64,000 nt of DNA from Fimbriimonadaceae bacterium. GTDB taxonomy: Bacteria > Armatimonadota > Fimbriimonadia > Fimbriimonadales > Fimbriimonadaceae. Of this stretch, positions 18,817 through 50,601 are shown one piece after another. Under the pieces are notes generated by a model. It did no database searches. It saw nothing but the letters and a program-made list of their open reading frames with translations, and had not been told where the DNA came from. Each line of letters starts with the position of its first letter. Within the stretch, counting starts at the first letter, position 1. The stretch spans positions 924,218 through 988,217 of the forward strand of contig CP075365.1 of NCBI GenBank assembly GCA_019454125.1. The letters are read 5' to 3'. A program made the translations under genes and the position numbers.

Positions 18817-20847
18817 TTATCGGGTGACTTCGACCTGAACGGTGTCCGCGCGCATCCGGAACGGAGTCGGGCTCGCGCCGTTGCGCCGCACAGGGTCGTG
18901 GACCCGGTACTGCACCTTCATCCGCTTGGACGAGATGTAGTTTTTCGCCGTGCCGACCAACTGGATCTTGTAGTCCGCCGACGTGCCCGTCGTGGTGAAG
19001 GACTTGATAAAGTCCCATTTCTTTGTCGCGTAGTTCCAGAGGAACACGGTGCCGGTCGGGTTCTTGCCGGGGACGTTGAAAGCGCGAAGGTAGACATTGA
19101 TGTCCTTGGCCTCCGCGGCGCTGTAGGGCGAGTCGTAGGAGAGCTCGACGCGCACGTACTGGCTCCGGTCGGGCCGCTGGAAGGAGTCCACCTGGTAGGT
19201 GTTCCCATCACCCTCGCGGAGCGAGGCCAGGGTGCCGCTCGCCAGCGTTCCCTCGAAGATGCGCACGTTGTCCGGCCGAGCGAAGTCCGCATTGTTGATG
19301 CCGCCCGCGGGAGCAAGGTTCCAGCGATGGATGACCGTGCCCCAACCGCGCGGGTTATTCACCTGCGCGTTGCCCCAGAACGTCTTTCCATCGACCGGGT
19401 CGATCGAGACGGAGTAATAGTCGCCCCACCGGGAGCCGTTCTGCTGGAGGCCGGAACTGGTGGCAACTTGAATGGGCGCGGCCATGGTGCCGAGCGGGTC
19501 GCTCGCGCGCCGCCCGGTGACAAGCACGTCGGCAGAGACGCTCGCGCTGCTGCGAGTGAAGATCATGCCGATCTCGCCGAACTTGTTGATGCCGATACCC
19601 GGCTGATAGGCGTGGACGCCGTTGCCGAACCCAATTACGCCGCTTTGGCGCACGCTGGGGCGCTGGCCCGAATCCGGCCAGCCCGCCATTCGGAACTCGT
19701 ACCAGGAAACCGCGGCCTCGTTCTTGGTCGCGGAAAGGGTGGTCGTATGGGCCGCCACGAGGGATCCGTTGTTGTAGCCAGCGTCGACGATGCGGCCGGA
19801 GAGTGTGTCCTGGCGTCGGCCGCCCGCGCTCGGCGCGCCGCCGACGAACCGGTAGTTGGGCACGTTCAAGAACGTGTAGACCAGCTCCGGGGTGTCCGAA
19901 CCGATGCCGCGGAAGGCATAGGCGCGGATCTGGGTGGAGGAAGTGAAGTCGATGGAGGCGCCATAGATGCGCGGATCCGTGGTATCGACCGAGCGGGCCC
20001 ACTGGATGGTGAAGGTTTCGTTATCGACCCACCGGCTGACGGTGACGGGCCCGCCGTTGATCAGCTCGTTCTTATTGAGGAGCTGGGCTTGCACGAACGT
20101 CTCGCCCTCGTCGAAGGCGAACATGTTGCCGCTCACCGCGATCGCGTCCTTGTTGAAGCCGAAACCGGGATAGTCGAGCCAGAACTTGTTGTTGTCGACC
20201 TCGAGCAGGTCGTCGATTCGGTACCGGTTCCAGCGGCCGTTCGGGTTCTCGTCGTCCGAACAGGCGATCAGGTAATGGCTTTCCACCGCGCCGAAGTCGA
20301 CGTCGAGGACGATCACGAAGAACCGCTTCGAGCTCGAATCGTAGAAGACCTTCGGGTCGAAGAGGTAGTTGCTCGCGCCGAGACCTGCGAAGAAAGCGTC
20401 GAACGTCTGCTGGAACTCAAGCGCGCCGGAGCGATTGAAGAAGGCGATGCTGGAGTTCACGACCTGCACGACGTGCGTGCTGCTCACCGCGATCTGCGGG
20501 TCCGGCGGGTACCAGCCGAGCTGGTCCATGCCGGGGAACGACTTCAGGCCCCGCGCCCTGGAATCACTCAGCGCCGTGCCCGGCACCAGGTTGTTCGGCG
20601 TTCCCGGCTTGAGCACCCTTCGGCTGTCCGGGTTCATAGGCGGGAAGGGCGGCTGCTTGATCTGCTTGAGGACCTGGGGGCGGAACGTCAGCGTATCGAC
20701 CACCGAAGCAGGTGCGGTCCGCTTCTGATCAAAGCGCTCGATCTTTTTGTAGTTCTGCGCACCAGCCAACATCGCTACGCACAGCAGGCTGGCAATACCG
20801 ATGGCGCGACTCACCGGGAGGACGATTCTATGATGCATGGCCATCAC
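18817..20847 (-). CDS. Large secreted protein, propeller-like body plus C-terminal domain
   Basis: 676 residues (a little shorter if ATG 20844 or 20838 is used; GAGAG precedes them). Signal peptide to about residue 30 (GIASLLCVAMLAGAQ). The body carries repeated blades with WYPPDPQIAVSSTHVVQVVN, DPKVFYDSSSKRFFVIVLD and SRWGDYYSVSIDP, the same blocks as in three other proteins of this window. The last 150 residues (VRIFEGTLASGTLASLREGD to the end) are a diverged copy of the C-terminal domain found at 42-50 kb. Function unknown; an extracellular binding or adhesion role is inference. Confidence 0.8.
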   Translation of the reverse strand: MMAMHHRIVLPVSRAIGIASLLCVAMLAGAQNYKKIERFDQKRTAPASVVDTLTFRPQVLKQIKQPPFPPMNPDSRRVLKPGTPNNLVPGTALSDSRARGLKSFPGMDQLGWYPPDPQIAVSSTHVVQVVNSSIAFFNRSGALEFQQTFDAFFAGLGASNYLFDPKVFYDSSSKRFFVIVLDVDFGAVESHYLIACSDDENPNGRWNRYRIDDLLEVDNNKFWLDYPGFGFNKDAIAVSGNMFAFDEGETFVQAQLLNKNELINGGPVTVSRWVDNETFTIQWARSVDTTDPRIYGASIDFTSSTQIRAYAFRGIGSDTPELVYTFLNVPNYRFVGGAPSAGGRRQDTLSGRIVDAGYNNGSLVAAHTTTLSATKNEAAVSWYEFRMAGWPDSGQRPSVRQSGVIGFGNGVHAYQPGIGINKFGEIGMIFTRSSASVSADVLVTGRRASDPLGTMAAPIQVATSSGLQQNGSRWGDYYSVSIDPVDGKTFWGNAQVNNPRGWGTVIHRWNLAPAGGINNADFARPDNVRIFEGTLASGTLASLREGDGNTYQVDSFQRPDRSQYVRVELSYDSPYSAAEAKDINVYLRAFNVPGKNPTGTVFLWNYATKKWDFIKSFTTTGTSADYKIQLVGTAKNYISSKRMKVQYRVHDPVRRNGASPTPFRMRADTVQVEVTR

Positions 20848-42282: not shown

Positions 42283-42315
42283 CCGGGGGCCAGCGATAAC
42301 GCCGGCCCCCGGTTT
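42283..42315 (+). terminator. Strong hairpin terminator after the adaptor gene
   Basis: CCGGGGGCC (42283-42291) pairs with GGCCCCCGG (42304-42312), extended inside by GCG/CGC, then TTTG. It may also stop the convergent gene that ends at 42327. Confidence 0.8.
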
Positions 42316-42326
42316 GTGGACCTCGA

Positions 42327-43670
42327 CTAGTTGCTGATCGTCCACGCGACCATGTCGGTCTCGTGGCACCAGTTGATGACGGCCGCGGGGCCGGTCTGGC
42401 GAATGGTGTAGCGGCAGCGGACGGCGCCGGCCGGGCCGACGTAACGCGCCAGGCTGCCGGTGGCGGTCAATTCGCGCTTCGTCATGACCGTATTGATCGC
42501 GTCGGACCGAACGTCGGTGGCGTCCCAGTTGTTCGTCACGAAGTTAAAGAGCTCGATCGTCTGGCGGAACGAGCCGGTGTGGAACATGCGGCTCGTGACC
42601 GACGTCTTGAGCGCGCTCGGGGAGGCCGTCGGCGATGTGCTGTTCACCTCGACGTTGACGGGCGGCTCTGCGAGGTTCTGCACGATGAACTTGCAGACGC
42701 GCAGCGAGTTGTTGTCCTCGGTCTGCAGGCTCTGAAGGTTGCCGGCGTCGACACGGCCGCGGCGGACCGTGAAGCTCTCCGGCTTGACCACGACCTCCGA
42801 CGATCCCGGGATCGTCACGTACTGCACGCCCGGAATGTTGCCGAAGTTCACTTGGCGCGGATCGCCCAGGTTGTCGCCGCCGCCAATGCCCGGCAGAACC
42901 TGGTTCGAAAGGAAGTCGAACCCATCGTTGAAGACGAAGACGCACAACCGGATGTCCCCGGTCGGGCTGCCCAGTTGGGTGAGCGGGATCTTCAGCTCGA
43001 TGCCGGTGGTCACCGCGTCGGTGACCGCCGTGTTCATCGTCCCGAGTCCGTCGGTCGCACCCGCGATGTTCGAGTTGTTGATCGTGCCGGCGACGCCGTT
43101 CGGGTTGTTGCCGCCCGTGAGCGTGCCGTTGCTGCCCGGCGTGGTGGAGCCGACATAGTAGGCGGTGCCACCGTTGGCGACCGTTTCAACCTGCGAAAAG
43201 TTGACGAAGACGCCGACCGGCGAACCCCCCGCGACAAAGCCCATCCAGCTGTCCGCCGCAAAACCGGCGTCGAACGTGAGGCCGTTCCCCGAGCCGTCGT
43301 CGCCGAACAGTTGGAAGCGGTTGAAGTCGACGTCCGGCAGACCGGCGGGCAAGCGGTTGTAACCTCCCGTCTTGTGGTCGAAGAAGAGCGAGACCTTGTT
43401 GTACACGCCGTTGTCCGCACCGACGTTGCCGCCGATGAAAAGGTAAAGGTCGGTCGCAGTCCGCACGTAGTAAACGTTATCGGCCTCTGAGCCGTTGGCG
43501 AAGTCGATCAGGCCCAAGTTGTTGTCGCCAAAGGCGGTCTGGGTGTCCTGGGCAGACGCCTTGACATAAACGGCGTCCCGCTGCCCATCGATCGTTGGAA
43601 TTTGGGCGAAGGCAGCGCCGCAAACCGTGAGGGCCAGCGACGCTATGAGAATGCGAGGAAAGTTGACCAT
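42327..43670 (-). CDS. Secreted two-domain protein A (CBM9/DOMON-like plus shared C-terminal domain)
   Basis: 447 residues. Signal peptide LIASLALTVCGAAFA. The N-terminal domain (about 23-290) begins PTIDGQRDAVYVKASAQDTQT and has VRTATDLYLFIGGNV, a CBM9/DOMON-like sugar- or haem-binding fold by pattern. The last 155 residues (FTVRRGRVDAGNLQSLQTED to WCHETDMVAWTIS) are the domain shared with the next three genes. It is the tandem paralogue of 43881-45191. A TGAATACGAATTC box lies 57 bp upstream of the start. Confidence 0.8.
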   Translation of the reverse strand: MVNFPRILIASLALTVCGAAFAQIPTIDGQRDAVYVKASAQDTQTAFGDNNLGLIDFANGSEADNVYYVRTATDLYLFIGGNVGADNGVYNKVSLFFDHKTGGYNRLPAGLPDVDFNRFQLFGDDGSGNGLTFDAGFAADSWMGFVAGGSPVGVFVNFSQVETVANGGTAYYVGSTTPGSNGTLTGGNNPNGVAGTINNSNIAGATDGLGTMNTAVTDAVTTGIELKIPLTQLGSPTGDIRLCVFVFNDGFDFLSNQVLPGIGGGDNLGDPRQVNFGNIPGVQYVTIPGSSEVVVKPESFTVRRGRVDAGNLQSLQTEDNNSLRVCKFIVQNLAEPPVNVEVNSTSPTASPSALKTSVTSRMFHTGSFRQTIELFNFVTNNWDATDVRSDAINTVMTKRELTATGSLARYVGPAGAVRCRYTIRQTGPAAVINWCHETDMVAWTISN

Positions 43671-43726
43671 ATGTTCTCCACTCTGAGGTTTTAAGGATTC
43701 TGGGAACCCGTCGCCTTACCGGCTTA

Positions 43727-43739
43727 TGAATACGAATTC
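43727..43739. promoter_or_regulatory. Shared box TGAATACGAATTC upstream of protein A
   Basis: Identical 13-mer at the same distance (56-57 bp) before both protein A and protein B starts. The core is GAAT-ACGA-ATTC, an inverted repeat. Confidence 0.55.
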
Positions 43740-43814
43740 CCATGGTGACGATACAACACTGGCCGCAAGAAAGAAAACCCTACCGGCAATTTCCAGCAGA
43801 GATATTTGCTGGTT

Positions 43815-43860
43815 CTTAATAAAAAGCGGCGCGCCCAGGGAGAATCCTGAGCGCGCCGCC
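43815..43860 (-). terminator. Rho-independent terminator after protein B
   Basis: On the minus strand a 9-bp GC stem (GCGGCGCGC/GCGCGCCGC, 43826-43859), extended by inner pairs, is followed by TTTTTATT. Confidence 0.88.
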
Positions 43861-43880
43861 CGCCTTGACGGGGTCGCCTT

Positions 43881-45191
43881 TTACCGACCGACCGTGAAGT
43901 CGATGCTGTCCACTTCGTGGCACCAGAGGCTGGCGCCGGCAGGACCGGTCTGCTTGACGGTGTAGCGCATCAGCAATCGGCCACCGGAGACGAACCGAGC
44001 GTAGGGCCCGCCTGCAACGACCGTCCGGTCGCTGAACGAGGTGTTGACCGGGAACTCGGCACGGTTCACCCAAGCGCCGGCAGTGAAGTCGCGCAGCTCA
44101 AGGGCAACGCGGAAAGAGCCAGTGGTCTGCATTCGATTGCGATAGTGCATCTCCAGGCTCGAAGGGTTGCTCACTGTAGTCGGCGCGCCCACTTCCACGT
44201 TGACCGGGTCAACGGACTGGTTCGGCACGATGAACTTGCAGACGCGGAGCACGTTGCCGTCCGATTGGGCAAGGCTCGCCACGTTGCCCGCGTCGAGTCG
44301 GCCCAGGCGGATCACGAAGTTGTCCGGCACGGCTTTCTCAGCCGCGGCCGGAACCGTGAACCATTGCTCGCCATTGATCGCGGAGAAGTCCGCCAAGCGC
44401 GGTTCGGCAAGGTTGTCACCGCCATTGAGGCCGCTCAAGACCTGGTTGGACAGGTAATCGTGGCCGCCGCCGTTCACGAAGATGCAAAGCTTGATCGGAC
44501 CGGTCGGGTTGCCGATCGCAGCCAGCGGGATCCTGAATTCCATGCCCGTGGTGACGCCCGCGCCGTTGCCCGGGTCGATCCCGTTGCCGCCCGGCACGCC
44601 GGCCGTGTTGGAGTTGTCCAGGGTCGCTTCGATCCCGAACGGGTTGGTGCCGCCATTGAGCGTGCCGTTACCCTGCACTCCCATGCCGAGGTAGTAACCG
44701 ACGCCGCCGTTCGCGACAGCCTTGACCTCGCTGTAGTTTGCGTAGAGCTCAAGCGGGCTGTTGCCGCAGGTCAAGCCAAGCCAGTAGTCCGCCGCAAGGG
44801 CCGTGTCGAAGGTCAGGCCGTTGCCGGTGCCATCGTCGCTCATGCGGTTCAAGGCGCCGAAGTCCACGTCCGGATAGTCGCCCGTCAGCCTCGTGTGCCC
44901 GCCGGCGATGCTGTCGATGAAGATCTCAAGCTTGTTAAAATTGCTCTCCAGGTTGCCGCCGACCAGGATGTAGAGGTCCGTGGCCGTCCGGTAGACGTAG
45001 CAGTTGTCGAGCTCGCTGCCGTTCGCGAAGTCGGGAAGTCCGAGGTTGCTGTCGCCGAACTGGGTCTGCGTATTTTGTACGACTATCGGGCTGCCGTAGA
45101 CAGGGTCGGCGATCCCGTCCACAGTCTGCGCAACGGCGAGCCCACAGGCTGCCATGAGCGCGGTGGTGAAAATGCCTTTTGTCAGTTTCAT
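43881..45191 (-). CDS. Secreted two-domain protein B, paralogue of A
   Basis: 436 residues from ATG 45191, preceded by GAGGAGAAG. Signal peptide GIFTTALMAACGLAVAQ. The N-terminal domain (TVDGIADPVYGSPIVVQNTQT, VYRTATDLYILVGGNL) and the C-terminal domain (FVIRLGRLDAGNVASLAQSD to LWCHEVDSIDFTVG) both match protein A, so the pair arose by tandem duplication. The C-terminal domain keeps a cysteine in VCKFIV and in WCHE in both. Function unknown. Confidence 0.8.
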   Translation of the reverse strand: MKLTKGIFTTALMAACGLAVAQTVDGIADPVYGSPIVVQNTQTQFGDSNLGLPDFANGSELDNCYVYRTATDLYILVGGNLESNFNKLEIFIDSIAGGHTRLTGDYPDVDFGALNRMSDDGTGNGLTFDTALAADYWLGLTCGNSPLELYANYSEVKAVANGGVGYYLGMGVQGNGTLNGGTNPFGIEATLDNSNTAGVPGGNGIDPGNGAGVTTGMEFRIPLAAIGNPTGPIKLCIFVNGGGHDYLSNQVLSGLNGGDNLAEPRLADFSAINGEQWFTVPAAAEKAVPDNFVIRLGRLDAGNVASLAQSDGNVLRVCKFIVPNQSVDPVNVEVGAPTTVSNPSSLEMHYRNRMQTTGSFRVALELRDFTAGAWVNRAEFPVNTSFSDRTVVAGGPYARFVSGGRLLMRYTVKQTGPAGASLWCHEVDSIDFTVGR

Positions 45192-45243
45192 GTCTCTTCT
45201 CCTCATTGAGTCCGTCATGCGAGGCGGAAGCTACTGCTCCTGC

Positions 45244-45271
45244 CTGTGAATACGAATTCACAGTTAGTATA
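45244..45271 (-). promoter_or_regulatory. Promoter of protein B with palindrome near the start site
   Basis: TATACT (45271-45266) is a good -10 box, with TTGCCA at 45296-45291 as a possible -35 (spacer 19). The 20-bp palindrome CTGTGAATACGAATTCACAG (45244-45263) covers the expected start of the transcript. It could be an operator or a 5' hairpin. Confidence 0.55.
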
Positions 45272-45355
45272 CGGCACAAATCACCCTGAGTGGCAAGTGC
45301 ATCTGCCCGCAGGTGTGCGAGATTTCCACCAGCCCCGCAAAGCTGCTGGAGAGAC

Positions 45356-45390
45356 AAAAAGAAGGCCGCCCCCGCTAGAGGGGCGGCCTT
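45356..45390 (-). terminator. Rho-independent terminator after protein C
   Basis: An 11-bp stem (AAGGCCGCCCC, 45362-45372, with GGGGCGGCCTT, 45380-45390), followed on the minus strand by CTTTTTG. Confidence 0.85.
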
Positions 45391-45412
45391 TGGCCTTCTG
45401 TCGAGCCAGGCG

Positions 45413-47785
45413 TTACTGGCCGACGGTCCAGACCGCGCGGTCTGTGAGCTGGCACCAGATGCTGGCGCCGGCAGGGCCGGTCTGCTTGATGCGGTATCGC
45501 GCGCGCAGGGCGTTCCCGCCCCCGACGTAGCGGCCCAAGGAACCGGTTCCGTTCAGAGTGCGCTCAGTGAACGTCGTGCCGACGGCGTCGGTGCGGACGT
45601 CGGTCGCATCGAACGAGTTCGTCTGCCAGTTGTACATGTCCAGGATCTGGCTGAACGAGCCCGTAGTGTCCATCCTGGAAAGGACGGTGAAGCTCAGCGA
45701 GGTCGGGTTGCTTCCCGGCGCCGTGCCGTCGATTTCGACGTTGATCGGTTCGACGAACTGGTTCGGCACGATGAACTTGCACACGACGAGCGAGTCGCCG
45801 TCACGCCCCGCAAGGCTCTGGACGTTGCCGGAGGCGAGGCGGCCCAGGCGGACCGTGAAGCTGCCCGGCGCGACTTCGACGTTCGAGCCGCCCGTCACGG
45901 TGAGGACGGCGTTGCCGGTCGCCGTCTGGCGGTCCGGGTTGGTCAGGGTCAGGTTGCGAGTGCCGGTGGCGGCGTTCGCCGCGACCGTGACGTTCAGTAC
46001 GACCTGGGTCGGGTTGCTGTGGTTGAACGTGATGCTGTTGACGGTGACGCCCGTGCCGCTGAAGAGCGCTTCGAGGCGCTGCGGGAAGCTGGCGTCGTTG
46101 TCGTAGTACTCACGGCCGTTGGAGCCGTCGCCGGTCACCGTGATGTTGGTCGTCTGGCCCTGGGCCACCGAGTTCGGAGCGAGGCTGACGATCGGGCACG
46201 GAGCCGGAGCCTTCAGTTCGGCCCAGCGGGTGGACCACACGCCGGCGGAGGCCACCGTCTCCTGGATCGTCCAGACGGTCTGGTCGTCCGCGGGGTCCAC
46301 GAAGGTTCCAGAATAGTCGCCCCAGCGGCCAGCGTTATAGCCGGCCGTGCTCTGGAAGTACGTTTCCGGGGCGCCGGTCTGGCCGAGCGGGGCACCAAAC
46401 AAGCGGCCCGCATGGATCGCGCGGATGAACGTCGAGGAGTTGGCGCTGTTCGCGCCGATGGCGAGGTGGCCCTGGCCCGTCATGGCGCAGCTGCCCATCC
46501 AGTAGTACTGGAAGCCGCTGCTGGCCGGGTCGAAGAGGGTGCCGGCCTGGCGAAGGGTCGGCGTGGCGTTCGTAAGGTTGACGAGCTCGTACCAGCGCAT
46601 GCCGACACGGGTCGCGCCGACGCCGCCGTTGGCGTTCCCGTTTTGGTCGCAGTTCGTCGCGTGGGCGCATGTGAGCGTCCACGTGTTCGTCTTTCGGTTC
46701 AGGCGGATCTGGGCGTGGAAGATGCGGTCGCCGAGGCTCGGCTGGCTACCGCCGTTGCTCGGGATGTTGCCCGGGACTGACGTCGCCGGCACGTTGATCA
46801 CGATGTTGCCGGAGATCGAGGGAACGTTGTTCGACCAGCTAAGCTTGCGCATAACGAGCTGGCCTGTCGCGCCCTGGTTAGGGCCGATGATGTAAGACTC
46901 CGGCGCGTTCGGATCCGGATTGTCCACACCGCGAGGCGAAAACGGAGCGGTGCCGCTGGTGCCGCCAGTCGTGAACCGGAACCCCGTCACAAGCCCAGAG
47001 CCAACCAGGTTGGCCTTGGGGATGACCGTCACGGCCGTTCCGAGGAACGCGGAAAGGCTCGTGTTGAACGTGTTCTCGCCGACGATGACGCCGTACCGGT
47101 CGACGCCGCAAGACTCATAGTCCGAGAAGGCGCCCGGAACCTGGTAGTACCAGAACGTGAAGTTCGACTGGTTCGTGATCGTCGGCCCGTTCGAAACGGC
47201 GAGGCAAATGCGGTTCGGGGCGTTGAAGGTGATCGCGACGATGTACCACTTCTGGCTCAGCGGGTCGTACGTGGCCCGCGGGTCGATCGCGTCGGACCCG
47301 CCGCCGACCGACGAGAAGAACGCCTGAGAGGTGATTCGTGGCCCCAGGTTTCCGTCCTTGTCGCGCCAGTTGATCATGCCGTTCACGAACGTGCAGACCT
47401 GGGTGGGGCCGATCGAGCCGAAGCTGTCCGGAGGGGTGTACTGCGTGGCGGGCTCACCAACGAAGCTGCGGCCGAGGGTCTGCGGCGCCAAGGGGCCGCT
47501 CGCCGGGCCCTCGTCCATCGGGTACCGGTTGCCCGGCAGGGCTTCCTTCGCCAGAGGCAGGTTCTCGCGACCGAGTTCCTGTTCTTCCGTTCGCTTCGGA
47601 ACGATGAAGCCTGCGTAAGTGGGATTGTCGAGGCGGGCCAGCTCTTCAATGCTGAACGTGTAGCCGCCTTGGAGCTGGATAGGCGTGCCTTCGGTGTAAC
47701 CCTTGGGCGCTTGCGCGGGCGATATTGATGTAAGGACCGCCGCGAAAAGCAACGGACGGCAAAGGCGAGTGAGTGTCAAATGCAT
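45413..47785 (-). CDS. Secreted protein C: propeller-like, IPT/TIG-like and shared C-terminal domain
   Basis: 790 residues. Signal peptide LLFAAVLTSISPAQA. The body (about 100-535) has the paralogue blocks YTPPDSFGSIGPTQVCTFVNG, DPRATYDPLSQKWYIVAITF and GRWGDYSGTFVDPADDQTVW. An IPT/TIG-like domain follows (about 535-635; SLAPNSVAQGQTTNITVTG to VLTVTGG). The last 155 residues are the shared C-terminal domain. ATG 47785 touches its GGAG; TTG 47779 has better spacing. Likely an extracellular adhesion or binding protein (inference). Confidence 0.8.
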   Translation of the reverse strand: MHLTLTRLCRPLLFAAVLTSISPAQAPKGYTEGTPIQLQGGYTFSIEELARLDNPTYAGFIVPKRTEEQELGRENLPLAKEALPGNRYPMDEGPASGPLAPQTLGRSFVGEPATQYTPPDSFGSIGPTQVCTFVNGMINWRDKDGNLGPRITSQAFFSSVGGGSDAIDPRATYDPLSQKWYIVAITFNAPNRICLAVSNGPTITNQSNFTFWYYQVPGAFSDYESCGVDRYGVIVGENTFNTSLSAFLGTAVTVIPKANLVGSGLVTGFRFTTGGTSGTAPFSPRGVDNPDPNAPESYIIGPNQGATGQLVMRKLSWSNNVPSISGNIVINVPATSVPGNIPSNGGSQPSLGDRIFHAQIRLNRKTNTWTLTCAHATNCDQNGNANGGVGATRVGMRWYELVNLTNATPTLRQAGTLFDPASSGFQYYWMGSCAMTGQGHLAIGANSANSSTFIRAIHAGRLFGAPLGQTGAPETYFQSTAGYNAGRWGDYSGTFVDPADDQTVWTIQETVASAGVWSTRWAELKAPAPCPIVSLAPNSVAQGQTTNITVTGDGSNGREYYDNDASFPQRLEALFSGTGVTVNSITFNHSNPTQVVLNVTVAANAATGTRNLTLTNPDRQTATGNAVLTVTGGSNVEVAPGSFTVRLGRLASGNVQSLAGRDGDSLVVCKFIVPNQFVEPINVEIDGTAPGSNPTSLSFTVLSRMDTTGSFSQILDMYNWQTNSFDATDVRTDAVGTTFTERTLNGTGSLGRYVGGGNALRARYRIKQTGPAGASIWCQLTDRAVWTVGQ

Positions 47786-47856
47786 CTCCTAGGTGGGGGC
47801 AACGGCTCGTTAAGGCACGAAGCACGCCAATTTGGAAGATACCGTCCCAATCTGTC

Positions 47857-47890
47857 AAAAAAAATCTCTGCCAGACAATCTGGCAGAGAT
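47857..47890 (-). terminator. Rho-independent terminator after protein D
   Basis: A perfect 12-bp stem (ATCTCTGCCAGA, 47864-47875, with TCTGGCAGAGAT, 47879-47890), a 3-base loop and a run of T on the minus strand. Confidence 0.92.
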
Positions 47891-47944
47891 GCGGGTTTTT
47901 TGGCCAACCCGCCTGAGGGCGGGCTGGCCGTTCGCGGTCACGCC

Positions 47945-50356
47945 TTAAGGCGTGTAGATCCACTTGGCCTGGTCAGCCTGGTGGCACCAGATGCTGGCGC
48001 CGGCCGGGCCGGTCTGCTTGATGCGGTACCGGGCGCGGACGGCGTTTCCGGCCGAGAAGTAGCGGCCCAAGTTGCCGGTCGCGGTGAGCGTCCGGGTCGC
48101 ATAGGTCGTGTTGATCGAGTCCGTGCGGACGTCGTTCGAGTCGAACGCGTTCGTCTGGAAGTCGTACAGGTCGAGCGTCTGGCTAAAGGCGCCTGTCGTG
48201 TCCATCTTCGCGACCATCTCGAACTTCAGGTCGGTCGGGTTGTTGCCCGGGGCCGTGCCGTTGACTTCGACGTTGATCGGTTCGACGAACTGGTTCGGGA
48301 CGATGAACTTGCAGACCTTCAGGGCGTCGCCATCGACGTTGGCCAAGCTGGCAACGTTGCCCGAATCCAGGCGGCCGAGACGGACGGTGAAGGAGTTCGG
48401 GGCGATCGCGACCGCGCCGCCGCCCGCGGTGACGGTGAAGACACCGGTTCCCACAGTGGCCTGGCGGTCAGGGTTGGTGATCGTCAAGTCGCGGGCGCCG
48501 AGGGCGGCACCGTTGTCGACGGTCACGTTCAACACGACCTGGGTCGGGTTGTTGTGGTCGAACGAGATGCTGTTGACCGTGACGCCCGCACCGCTGAAGG
48601 CGGCTTCAAGGCGCTGCGGATAAGAAGCGTCCGTATCGTAGTACTCCTGGCCGTTGCCGGAGCTGCCTGTCACGGTGACGTTCGCCGTCTGCCCTTGCTG
48701 AAGGCTGTTCGGGGAAACGGTCGTGATCGGACAAGGCGCCGGCGCCAAGAGCTGGGCCCAGCGGACGCCCCAGGTATCGGCAGAACGGACGATTTCCTGG
48801 ACGGTCCAGATGGTCTGGTCGTCGTTCGGGTCGACGAAGGTGCCCGAGTAGTCGCCCCAGCGCTGCACGCCACTGAACGGGTCAATGTAGCGGGCCGTGC
48901 TCTGGAAGTAAACGGTGGGAGTGCGGGTCGTGCCCAGCGTGTCGTTGAAGAGGCGGCCGGAGTAGACGCCCTGGACGTACGTGGCCGAGTTGGAGCCGCT
49001 ATAGCCGAAGGCCATGTGGCCCTGGCCCGTCATGACCCCGCTGCCCATCCAGTAGTGGATCGGCGTGCCGCCCGGGTCGACGATCGAGCCGGCCTGGCGG
49101 AGCGTCGGCGTGGGCTGGGTCAGGTCGACGAGCTCGTACCATCGCATTCCCATGCGGTCACCACCGGCGACACCGGTGCTGGTCATGCGGAAGTGGTGGG
49201 CCGTGACCAGCGTCCATATGCCCGTCTTGCGGTTCTTGCGGATCTGGGCGTGGAACAGGCGGTCGGAGACCGAGCTGAGCAGGCGGGACGTGTCCCGCGT
49301 GGGGACGTTGATCGGTGTGGAAGTCGACGGCGTGCTGATGATGATGTTGCCGCTGATGGAGGGTGTGGTGCCGCTCCAGCTCAGCTTGCGCATCACCAAC
49401 TGGCTGAAGTTCGAGTTGCTGACGCCGATGATGTAGGACTCGGGGGCGTTCGGATCCGGGTTGTCGACGCCGCGGGGCGAGTCGACGCCTTGACCACCGC
49501 TCGAAGACGTGTTGAACCGGAAACCGGTGATCAGGCCGCCCGCGCCAAGGTTGGCGAGCGGGAAGATGGTCACGTTCGTGCCGAGGTACTGGGTGAGGCC
49601 CGTGTTGAACGTGTTCTCACCGACCATGACCGAGTACTTGTCGACGCCGAGCGACGGGTAGTCGCAGAACGCGCTGGGCACCTGGTAGTAGTACTGGGTG
49701 AAGTCCGCCTGGGCCGTGATCGTCGGGCCGTTCGAAACGGCCAGGATGATGCGGTTCGGCGAATTGACCGTGATCGCGACGACGTACCACTTCTGCGTGA
49801 TCGGGTCGAACGTCACGCGAGGGTCGGAGGTGCCGAACGAAGTGCCGCCGACCAGGTTGAAGAAGGTGTCGAGGTTGATCGAGACCTGGATCGTGCCGGT
49901 GCGGCTGCGCCAGTTGATGCGGCCGTTCACGGCCGTGCAGACCTGGCTGGGGCCGATCGCGCCGAACGAGTCGGGCGGGTAGAAGCCCGTCGCGCCCTGG
50001 CCCTCAAAGTTGGCGCCAACGGTTTGCGGGGTGAACGGAAGTCCGTGGCTCTTACCGTTTTGGCTCAGCGGGAACGAGCCGCCAGGAAGGGCGTCGGGGT
50101 TCTGTTGCAGGTTCGAGCGGTCGCGACCTTTGACCTCCGTCTCCTTGATGATCCGGGCGACCTTGTTCAAGAAGGGATATTCGCGGTCGGCGCGGATCAA
50201 GTCCGCGACAGAGACCTTACCGGCATTGACAATCGTGATTTTTTCGCCGAGCGTATAGCCAGGCTTTAGGTTCTGTGCCGTGCCAAGCGTCGCCAAGCTG
50301 AGTGCAGCGACCAAGAACACGCTTCTAGTTCGGATTTTTCCGAGCGGGATCGGCAT
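47945..50356 (-). CDS. Secreted protein D, close paralogue of C
   Basis: 803 residues from ATG 50356, where the signal peptide begins (IRTRSVFLVAALSLATLGTAQ). The frame is open further up to 50473, but that part is not signal-like. It matches protein C along its length: YPPDSFGAIGPSQVCTAVNG, DPRVTFDPITQKWYVVAITV, RWGDYSGTFVDPNDDQTIW, the TIG-like PNSLQQGQTANVTVTGSSG and the shared C-terminal domain. C and D are an ancient tandem pair; D has its own strong terminator. Confidence 0.82.
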   Translation of the reverse strand: MPIPLGKIRTRSVFLVAALSLATLGTAQNLKPGYTLGEKITIVNAGKVSVADLIRADREYPFLNKVARIIKETEVKGRDRSNLQQNPDALPGGSFPLSQNGKSHGLPFTPQTVGANFEGQGATGFYPPDSFGAIGPSQVCTAVNGRINWRSRTGTIQVSINLDTFFNLVGGTSFGTSDPRVTFDPITQKWYVVAITVNSPNRIILAVSNGPTITAQADFTQYYYQVPSAFCDYPSLGVDKYSVMVGENTFNTGLTQYLGTNVTIFPLANLGAGGLITGFRFNTSSSGGQGVDSPRGVDNPDPNAPESYIIGVSNSNFSQLVMRKLSWSGTTPSISGNIIISTPSTSTPINVPTRDTSRLLSSVSDRLFHAQIRKNRKTGIWTLVTAHHFRMTSTGVAGGDRMGMRWYELVDLTQPTPTLRQAGSIVDPGGTPIHYWMGSGVMTGQGHMAFGYSGSNSATYVQGVYSGRLFNDTLGTTRTPTVYFQSTARYIDPFSGVQRWGDYSGTFVDPNDDQTIWTVQEIVRSADTWGVRWAQLLAPAPCPITTVSPNSLQQGQTANVTVTGSSGNGQEYYDTDASYPQRLEAAFSGAGVTVNSISFDHNNPTQVVLNVTVDNGAALGARDLTITNPDRQATVGTGVFTVTAGGGAVAIAPNSFTVRLGRLDSGNVASLANVDGDALKVCKFIVPNQFVEPINVEVNGTAPGNNPTDLKFEMVAKMDTTGAFSQTLDLYDFQTNAFDSNDVRTDSINTTYATRTLTATGNLGRYFSAGNAVRARYRIKQTGPAGASIWCHQADQAKWIYTP

Positions 50357-50601
50357 AGTAAGTTTCCAGTCCTCCCCACCCTTATCGTCAGGCGACAGGG
50401 CGCAGCCTTTAAGGTAGGGCGGCAGCAAGGGGCCGCCATAACGACCACCTCCAGGCCAAAGGTAATCTACCATTTAAGAGGCTGGGATTCACTTGAATTC
50501 TCACAACCCCAGCAACGATGCTGTGGGACCTTTAGCCGCATCCGTCCCTTGGCACGTCGACGGGCCCCGCTGATCGCCCGGGTCGGATAGAATCGGGCGG
50601 A
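50357..50601. other. Divergent control region between protein D and nuoG
   Basis: No gene is seen in these 245 bp. On the minus strand GAGAATTCAAGTGAAT (around 50490) faintly resembles the GAATTC box of proteins A and B. TAGAAT near 50588 serves nuoG. Confidence 0.35.
50588..50593 (+). promoter_or_regulatory. -10 box of nuoG (TAGAAT)
   Basis: TAGAAT ends 8 bp before ATG 50602, implying leaderless or near-leaderless mRNA for the operon's first gene. Confidence 0.45.

Follow-up and report, generated by a model that had tools for sequence, protein, structure and literature searches.

Several kinds of C-terminal tail have been described on exported bacterial proteins. PEP-CTERM tails consist of a short motif, a transmembrane helix and a basic tail (PMC1569441), and the export signals of the type IX secretion system (T9SS) are C-terminal beta-sandwich domains (PMC4804311, PMC11285876). 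Here we describe a C-terminal domain of about 150 residues that is shared by exported proteins encoded in a 64,000-nucleotide stretch (the window) of a Fimbriimonadaceae bacterium genome (assembly GCA_019454125.1, contig CP075365.1, genome positions 924218-988217; the genome is one contig of 2,652,248 bases). Because known anchoring tails replace this domain on the same protein in relatives, it is itself probably a tail of a new kind, which attaches proteins to the cell surface or targets them there. Our preferred reading, to which we assign a probability of about 0.5, is that the domain is a reusable module that retains Sec-exported Armatimonadota proteins at the cell surface non-covalently, by binding envelope polysaccharide.

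Five proteins of the window end in one homologous domain. Four of them are encoded by tandem minus-strand open reading frames (ORFs) and align end to end over their C-termini, as proposed in an initial annotation made from the DNA alone. That annotation had also placed a diverged copy at the end of a 676-residue protein elsewhere in the window, and this copy proved homologous as well. A search of the whole genome with a single copy gave 34 matches, 33 of them with E below 1e-3 and the copy on the 676-residue protein being the weakest (E 0.18). In leave-one-out searches every one of the 34 copies was recovered; the same copy was again the weakest, yet scored 67 bits (E 2e-19), whereas 1000 shuffles of its sequence reached no more than 10 bits. 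The profile of the 34 copies finds 44 places in the genome, diverged ones among them, giving 34 clear copies and about 44 in total. One of the diverged copies, at genome positions 276799-277242 (plus strand), contains an in-frame TAG and may be either a paralogue in decay or an artefact of the assembly.

The sequence of the domain is loosely constrained outside a few positions. Over 121 distinct Armatimonadota copies with complete 3' ends, only G16, G21, D30 and D150 are near-invariant (94-99% of copies), and the motifs VCKFIV, NxE[VI], TGSF, GPA and WC, which the initial annotation had quoted for the four tandem proteins, belong to a cysteine-containing subgroup. Cysteines 37 and 146 occur together in 36 copies, are both absent from 85 and never occur singly; because of this perfect co-occurrence, a Cys37-Cys146 disulfide is predicted for the subgroup. 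That D30 and D150 form a calcium site is a guess. The copies are deeply diverged (22-68% identity to the first), and some paralogue pairs have both halves of the protein in common, two features that would suit a domain with no common function, a stable cap at the C-terminus that gene duplication and fusion have spread. The four conserved residues argue against such a cap, as do the repeated exchange of the domain on one N-terminal family and its replacement, at the same position, by known anchors (see below), and we regard the idea as very improbable.

The domain is almost always the last element of its protein. In the 121 copies, 119 terminate the protein within a few residues of the stop codon, and the uniformly C-terminal position that the initial annotation had set as a test has two exceptions, L111 and L112. 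Apart from these two, no tandem or internal copy occurs among the 121. In the 34 copies of the window's own genome, 0-11 residues separate the end of the copy from the stop, except on the 676-residue protein, where the pairwise match ends 26 residues early and the profile match reaches position 154. All 34 carriers have a signal-peptide-like start, as judged by a heuristic, and none has a hydrophobic tail (within the last 45 residues, no 18-residue stretch reaches a hydropathy of 0.8 in any of them). The partner domains recognized by Pfam and NCBIfam are diverse and include Peptidase_S8 (two, with more among the diverged copies), GDSL lipase/hydrolase, Sortilin-Vps10, BNR propellers, PQQ_2, SGL/NHL, PKD, LamG-like, sialidase-like and choice-of-anchor B domains. 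Many unrelated exported partners, each with one C-terminal copy, is the pattern of a general C-terminal anchoring or sorting class.

We searched 291 Armatimonadota genomes at a match threshold of 1e-5, using the profile built from one genome, and found the domain in 90. It is expanded in Fimbriimonadales, with at least 13 copies per genome in many members of the window's own family and in all eight of the sister family, and with 1-2 copies per genome in other classes. The initial expectation of many more carriers in the phylum was thus borne out, both by these 90 genomes and by the 44 places in the genome of origin. Named records found with a close-subset alignment belong to Fimbriimonadaceae, Chthonomonadaceae and other unclassified Armatimonadota metagenome-assembled genomes, and a search of plasmid records gave no match.

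Choice-of-anchor is the name that NCBI coined for N-terminal domains that occur now with one C-terminal anchor, now with another. One such family, choice-of-anchor B (TIGR04312), forms the N-terminal part of two clear carriers in the genome (E 8e-107 and 2e-88, above the cut-off), and a third paralogue at genome position 130293 has a diverged tail. A comparison of 30 choice-of-anchor B loci from the phylum showed that the tail at the same place is PEP-CTERM in L132 and L147, dockerin-like in L133, L134 and L148, and the domain in most others, including most Fimbriimonadales loci; the source genomes of L133, L134 and L147 gave no domain match in the phylum scan. On a tree of the 121 copies, in which bootstrap support is not fully settled and one of the genome's own choice-of-anchor B copies (L022) is unlabelled but lies inside the same cluster, the choice-of-anchor B copies need nine label changes (shuffles average 19.6). 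At least five of these are forced by well-supported branches. Together the counts indicate that the tail in part descended with its partner and in part was exchanged, repeatedly. The replacement by PEP-CTERM and dockerin-like tails within a single N-terminal family is the strongest evidence on function and indirectly supports the anchoring or sorting role first suggested for the domain.

A related pattern is seen across the 47 genera of the order. Only one (g30) of the 18 domain-rich genera is also dockerin-rich, and ten other dockerin-rich genera are domain-poor (Spearman -0.44, one-sided Fisher p 0.02, with phylogeny not controlled and domain counts given as at least 13 at the top). The window's own genome as a whole has no match to the dockerin profile PF00404 at E 0.001. 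PEP-CTERM tails are common in both domain-rich and dockerin-rich genera. The own genome encodes 39 of them (PF07589), all on genes other than domain carriers, together with one exosortase (PF09721, E 3e-48; genome positions 1186659-1187417, plus strand; L103:8450-9439). We considered the exosortase as a route for the carriers and rejected it, as they lack a hydrophobic tail and a PEP motif and the PF07589 matches lie elsewhere.

To what extent does the predicted fold inform function? An AlphaFold2 model of the copy from the 842-residue window protein, computed with 34 sequences, is almost all beta, with a predicted local distance difference test score (pLDDT) of 97.1 and a predicted template modelling score (pTM) of 0.90. 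Comparison by Foldseek and VIA-align 2 places the model among the jelly-roll carbohydrate-binding modules (CBMs); CBM4-2 aligns with Z 11.5 over 133-134 residues at a root-mean-square deviation (rmsd) of 3.0, and many other CBMs follow at Z 9.7-11. The model thus predicts, with high confidence, a jelly-roll CBM-like fold, which is a shared fold and not evidence of function, and the ligand-binding role raised in the initial annotation finds agreement at the level of this predicted fold only. A sequence search of solved structures returned four matches, all at chance level.

Named families offer one distant relative. NCBIfam and Pfam scans leave the C-termini of the window proteins without a name, NCBIfam has no family name for the domain, and a literature search found no description of it. 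The Pfam profile PF14741 (GH114_assoc), the sole named profile that finds several copies, gives matches with E no higher than 0.1 to 7 of the 34 members (lowest E 8e-5), mainly over the C-terminal half of the domain. Searched against the genome, it hits 8 places, all of them copies of the domain. One copy stands at the cut-off of 22 bits, scoring 23 in the genome search and 21.9 when scored alone, and the others fall below it. In our view the domain is a remote homologue of this little-studied family and not a member of it. The suggestion that the domain has no existing name accordingly holds for NCBIfam and is qualified by this weak kinship in Pfam.

Such kinship to a domain associated with glycoside hydrolase family 114 would fit an ordinary substrate-targeting CBM that takes secreted enzymes or adhesins to external polymers, its C-terminal place being a habit of the lineage. 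The CBM-like fold speaks for this account, and so do L111 and L112, in which another tail comes after the domain. The cargo, however, is mostly not recognizably carbohydrate-active (subtilases, propellers and choice-of-anchor B, among others). The scarcity of tandem or internal copies and the swaps with anchor tails also weigh against substrate targeting, which we judge a distinctly improbable account.

A different possibility is that the domain is an export signal, cleaved or retained, that is read by a dedicated outer-membrane secretion machine, whether T9SS-like or recognizing a folded type II signal. Strict C-terminal position, a single copy per protein, varied cargo and signal peptides would all be expected of such a signal, and a beta-sandwich at this place is shared with T9SS export signals. 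In a scan with the NCBIfam T9SS models, none of the 34 members gave a match at E 0.1 or lower, and the genome has no SprA (TIGR04189) over the cut-off of 200 bits, the best of two short matches reaching 31.5 bits over 95 of 2319 positions and the second 21 bits. We therefore rejected membership of the T9SS. The better match lies in the first of two large proteins that resemble outer-membrane barrels (genome positions 522677-525424, minus strand; L109:4678-7425; TIGR04189 E 2e-8, unnamed in Pfam), and this barrel was also rejected as a specific partner. It occurs in 217 of the 291 genomes, dockerin-rich and domain-free ones included, and because it is near-universal in Armatimonadota it is not specific to the domain. 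The second barrel-like protein (genome positions 1753503-1756994, minus strand; L110:1504-4995) has a short SprA stretch (E 4.5e-5). As L111 and L112 show, moreover, the domain need not be terminal, and the published T9SS domains are compact 3+4 Ig-like sandwiches (PMC11285876). The model of about 150 residues is jelly-roll-like in a comparison whose aligner does not exclude folds it leaves unlisted. Taken with these points, an export signal seems unlikely.

The neighbourhood of the first barrel contains a gene that appears by eye to encode a CsaB-type polysaccharide pyruvyl transferase (L109:7211-8281, minus strand), directly upstream of the barrel gene. It adjoins genes for a multi-spanning membrane protein and a rhomboid-like protein, a setting that hints at envelope polysaccharide attachment.

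Under our preferred reading, non-covalent retention at the surface, the cargo would enter the periplasm by means of its N-terminal signal peptide, and its last 150 residues would fold into a CBM-like jelly roll, presumably closed by the disulfide in the subgroup in which the two cysteines co-occur. Crossing of the outer membrane may proceed by type II secretion; such a Sec and type II route is possible because a type II secretion system, along with lipopolysaccharide genes, has been reported for Fimbriimonas ginsengisoli (PMC4072686). The domain would then keep the cargo attached to the envelope or matrix of the cell by binding, non-covalently, a ligand shared by the carriers, and the CBM-like fold of the model makes a surface polysaccharide the most likely candidate. 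In this capacity the domain would serve the purpose that PEP-CTERM/exosortase or dockerin-like tails serve on the same N-terminal domains in relatives. More tentatively, the domain could belong to an undescribed order-wide sorting system, parallel to exosortase and replacing dockerins, in which a folded, lectin-like C-terminal domain with its own receptor or translocon directs some 2% of the proteome, as an order of magnitude, to the surface; we consider this doubtful.

Several observations weigh against surface retention. In L111 and L112, which come from a family (f3) very rich in dockerin-like tails, a dockerin-like repeat of the form GDVNGDGxVDDADLL, about 58 residues long, follows the domain; the last 60 residues end in GQGC or GSGC. 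Because this tail comes after it, the domain is not the terminal signal in these two proteins. The protein at genome positions 376163-376600 (minus strand, L032) consists of a signal peptide and the domain alone, and the domain may therefore also act by itself. Many genomes have only 1-5 copies, fewer than one would expect if the domain served for anchoring in general, although distant copies are undercounted by a profile trained on a single genome. Finally, the complementarity with dockerins is of modest significance, does not control for phylogeny and counts as supporting evidence only. The L032 gene itself lies near two genes for prepilin-like proteins with FTLIELLVVIAIIAILAAILFPVF starts.

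Turning to the window genes, the four tandem carriers lie on the minus strand, as does the fifth (coordinates are those of the window). The gene for a 447-residue protein with a signal-peptide-like start occupies 42327-43670; its domain copy, at 42333..42791, matches profile positions 3-153 of 154 (E 1.2e-64), with the stop 1-3 residues on. The adjacent ORF at 43881-45218 encodes a 445-residue paralogue, 52% identical to it in the N-terminal part, whose copy at 43887..44339 matches positions 2-153 (E 2.6e-57). Next come a 790-residue protein (45413-47785), with a signal-peptide-like start, a long N-terminal part and an IPT/Ig-like (immunoglobulin-like) segment before the domain (45419..45877, positions 3-153, E 1e-61), and an 842-residue protein of like architecture (47945-50473), with the copy used for AlphaFold2 at 47951..48409 (positions 3-153, E 5.7e-65). 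Position 50356, earlier given as the end of the latter gene, is an internal ATG within the frame and its likely start. The ORF of the exported 676-residue protein spans 18817-20847, with the diverged copy at 18820..19284.

The names first given to the N-terminal parts are confirmed only in part. The TIG-like part ascribed to the two larger proteins is supported in the 790-residue protein by a match to domain III of quinohemoprotein amine dehydrogenase, which is Ig/IPT-like (E 9e-4, just below the Pfam cut-off); the same match in the 842-residue protein has E 0.11. For the CBM9/DOMON-like part ascribed to the two smaller proteins, Pfam gave no match and the structure model had a pLDDT of 34. 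A pattern scan, not in itself evidence of function, places a terminator-like stem-loop behind each of the four genes (42283..42312, 43824..43861, 45362..45390 and 47864..47890, in order from the 447- to the 842-residue protein, all minus strand). Because each gene has its own hairpin, this arrangement suggests that the four are probably separate single-gene transcription units rather than one operon, a pattern that fits PEP-CTERM proteins, which are mostly encoded by single-gene units (PMC1569441).

Armatimonadota surfaces are almost unstudied, and the module can serve to mark the order's surface proteome and would give a name to proteins now labelled hypothetical. The choice-of-anchor B swap is a natural experiment on its role, and attachment through the domain can be tested as an alternative to that by T9SS, PEP-CTERM or dockerins.

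A comparison with these and other known systems places the domain as follows. In structure, the top match is a phi812 phage baseplate domain (9eui_D, 9euf_H; Z 14.1, 141 residues, rmsd 2.6), a phage protein with 9% identity and no functional link. The jelly-roll CBMs (CBM4-2, CBM16, CBM22 and CBM15) share the fold (Z about 10-11.6, 130-136 residues, rmsd about 3) but only 7-12% identity, and differ from the domain's near-strictly C-terminal placement. GH114_assoc is described as N-terminal and GH114-associated, whereas the domain is C-terminal on many partners, and no GH114 catalytic domain was found in the own-genome carriers scanned. The T9SS cargo domain is likewise a beta-sandwich at the C-terminus of many proteins that a diderm phylum exports by Sec (PMC4804311, PMC11285876), though the domain is longer and predicted to be a jelly roll. 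Dockerin-like tails are C-terminal on the same N-terminal family in relatives and mostly complementary in genus distribution, but are a short calcium-binding-type repeat without sequence relation to the domain. PEP-CTERM tails resemble it in that one genome carries tens of them, on exported proteins of diverse kinds, and in being exchanged with it on choice-of-anchor B, yet the folded domain has none of their three elements (PMC1569441). C-terminal anchoring tails are known as a kind; the domain makes up a new family, and its folded, CBM-like form is unusual.

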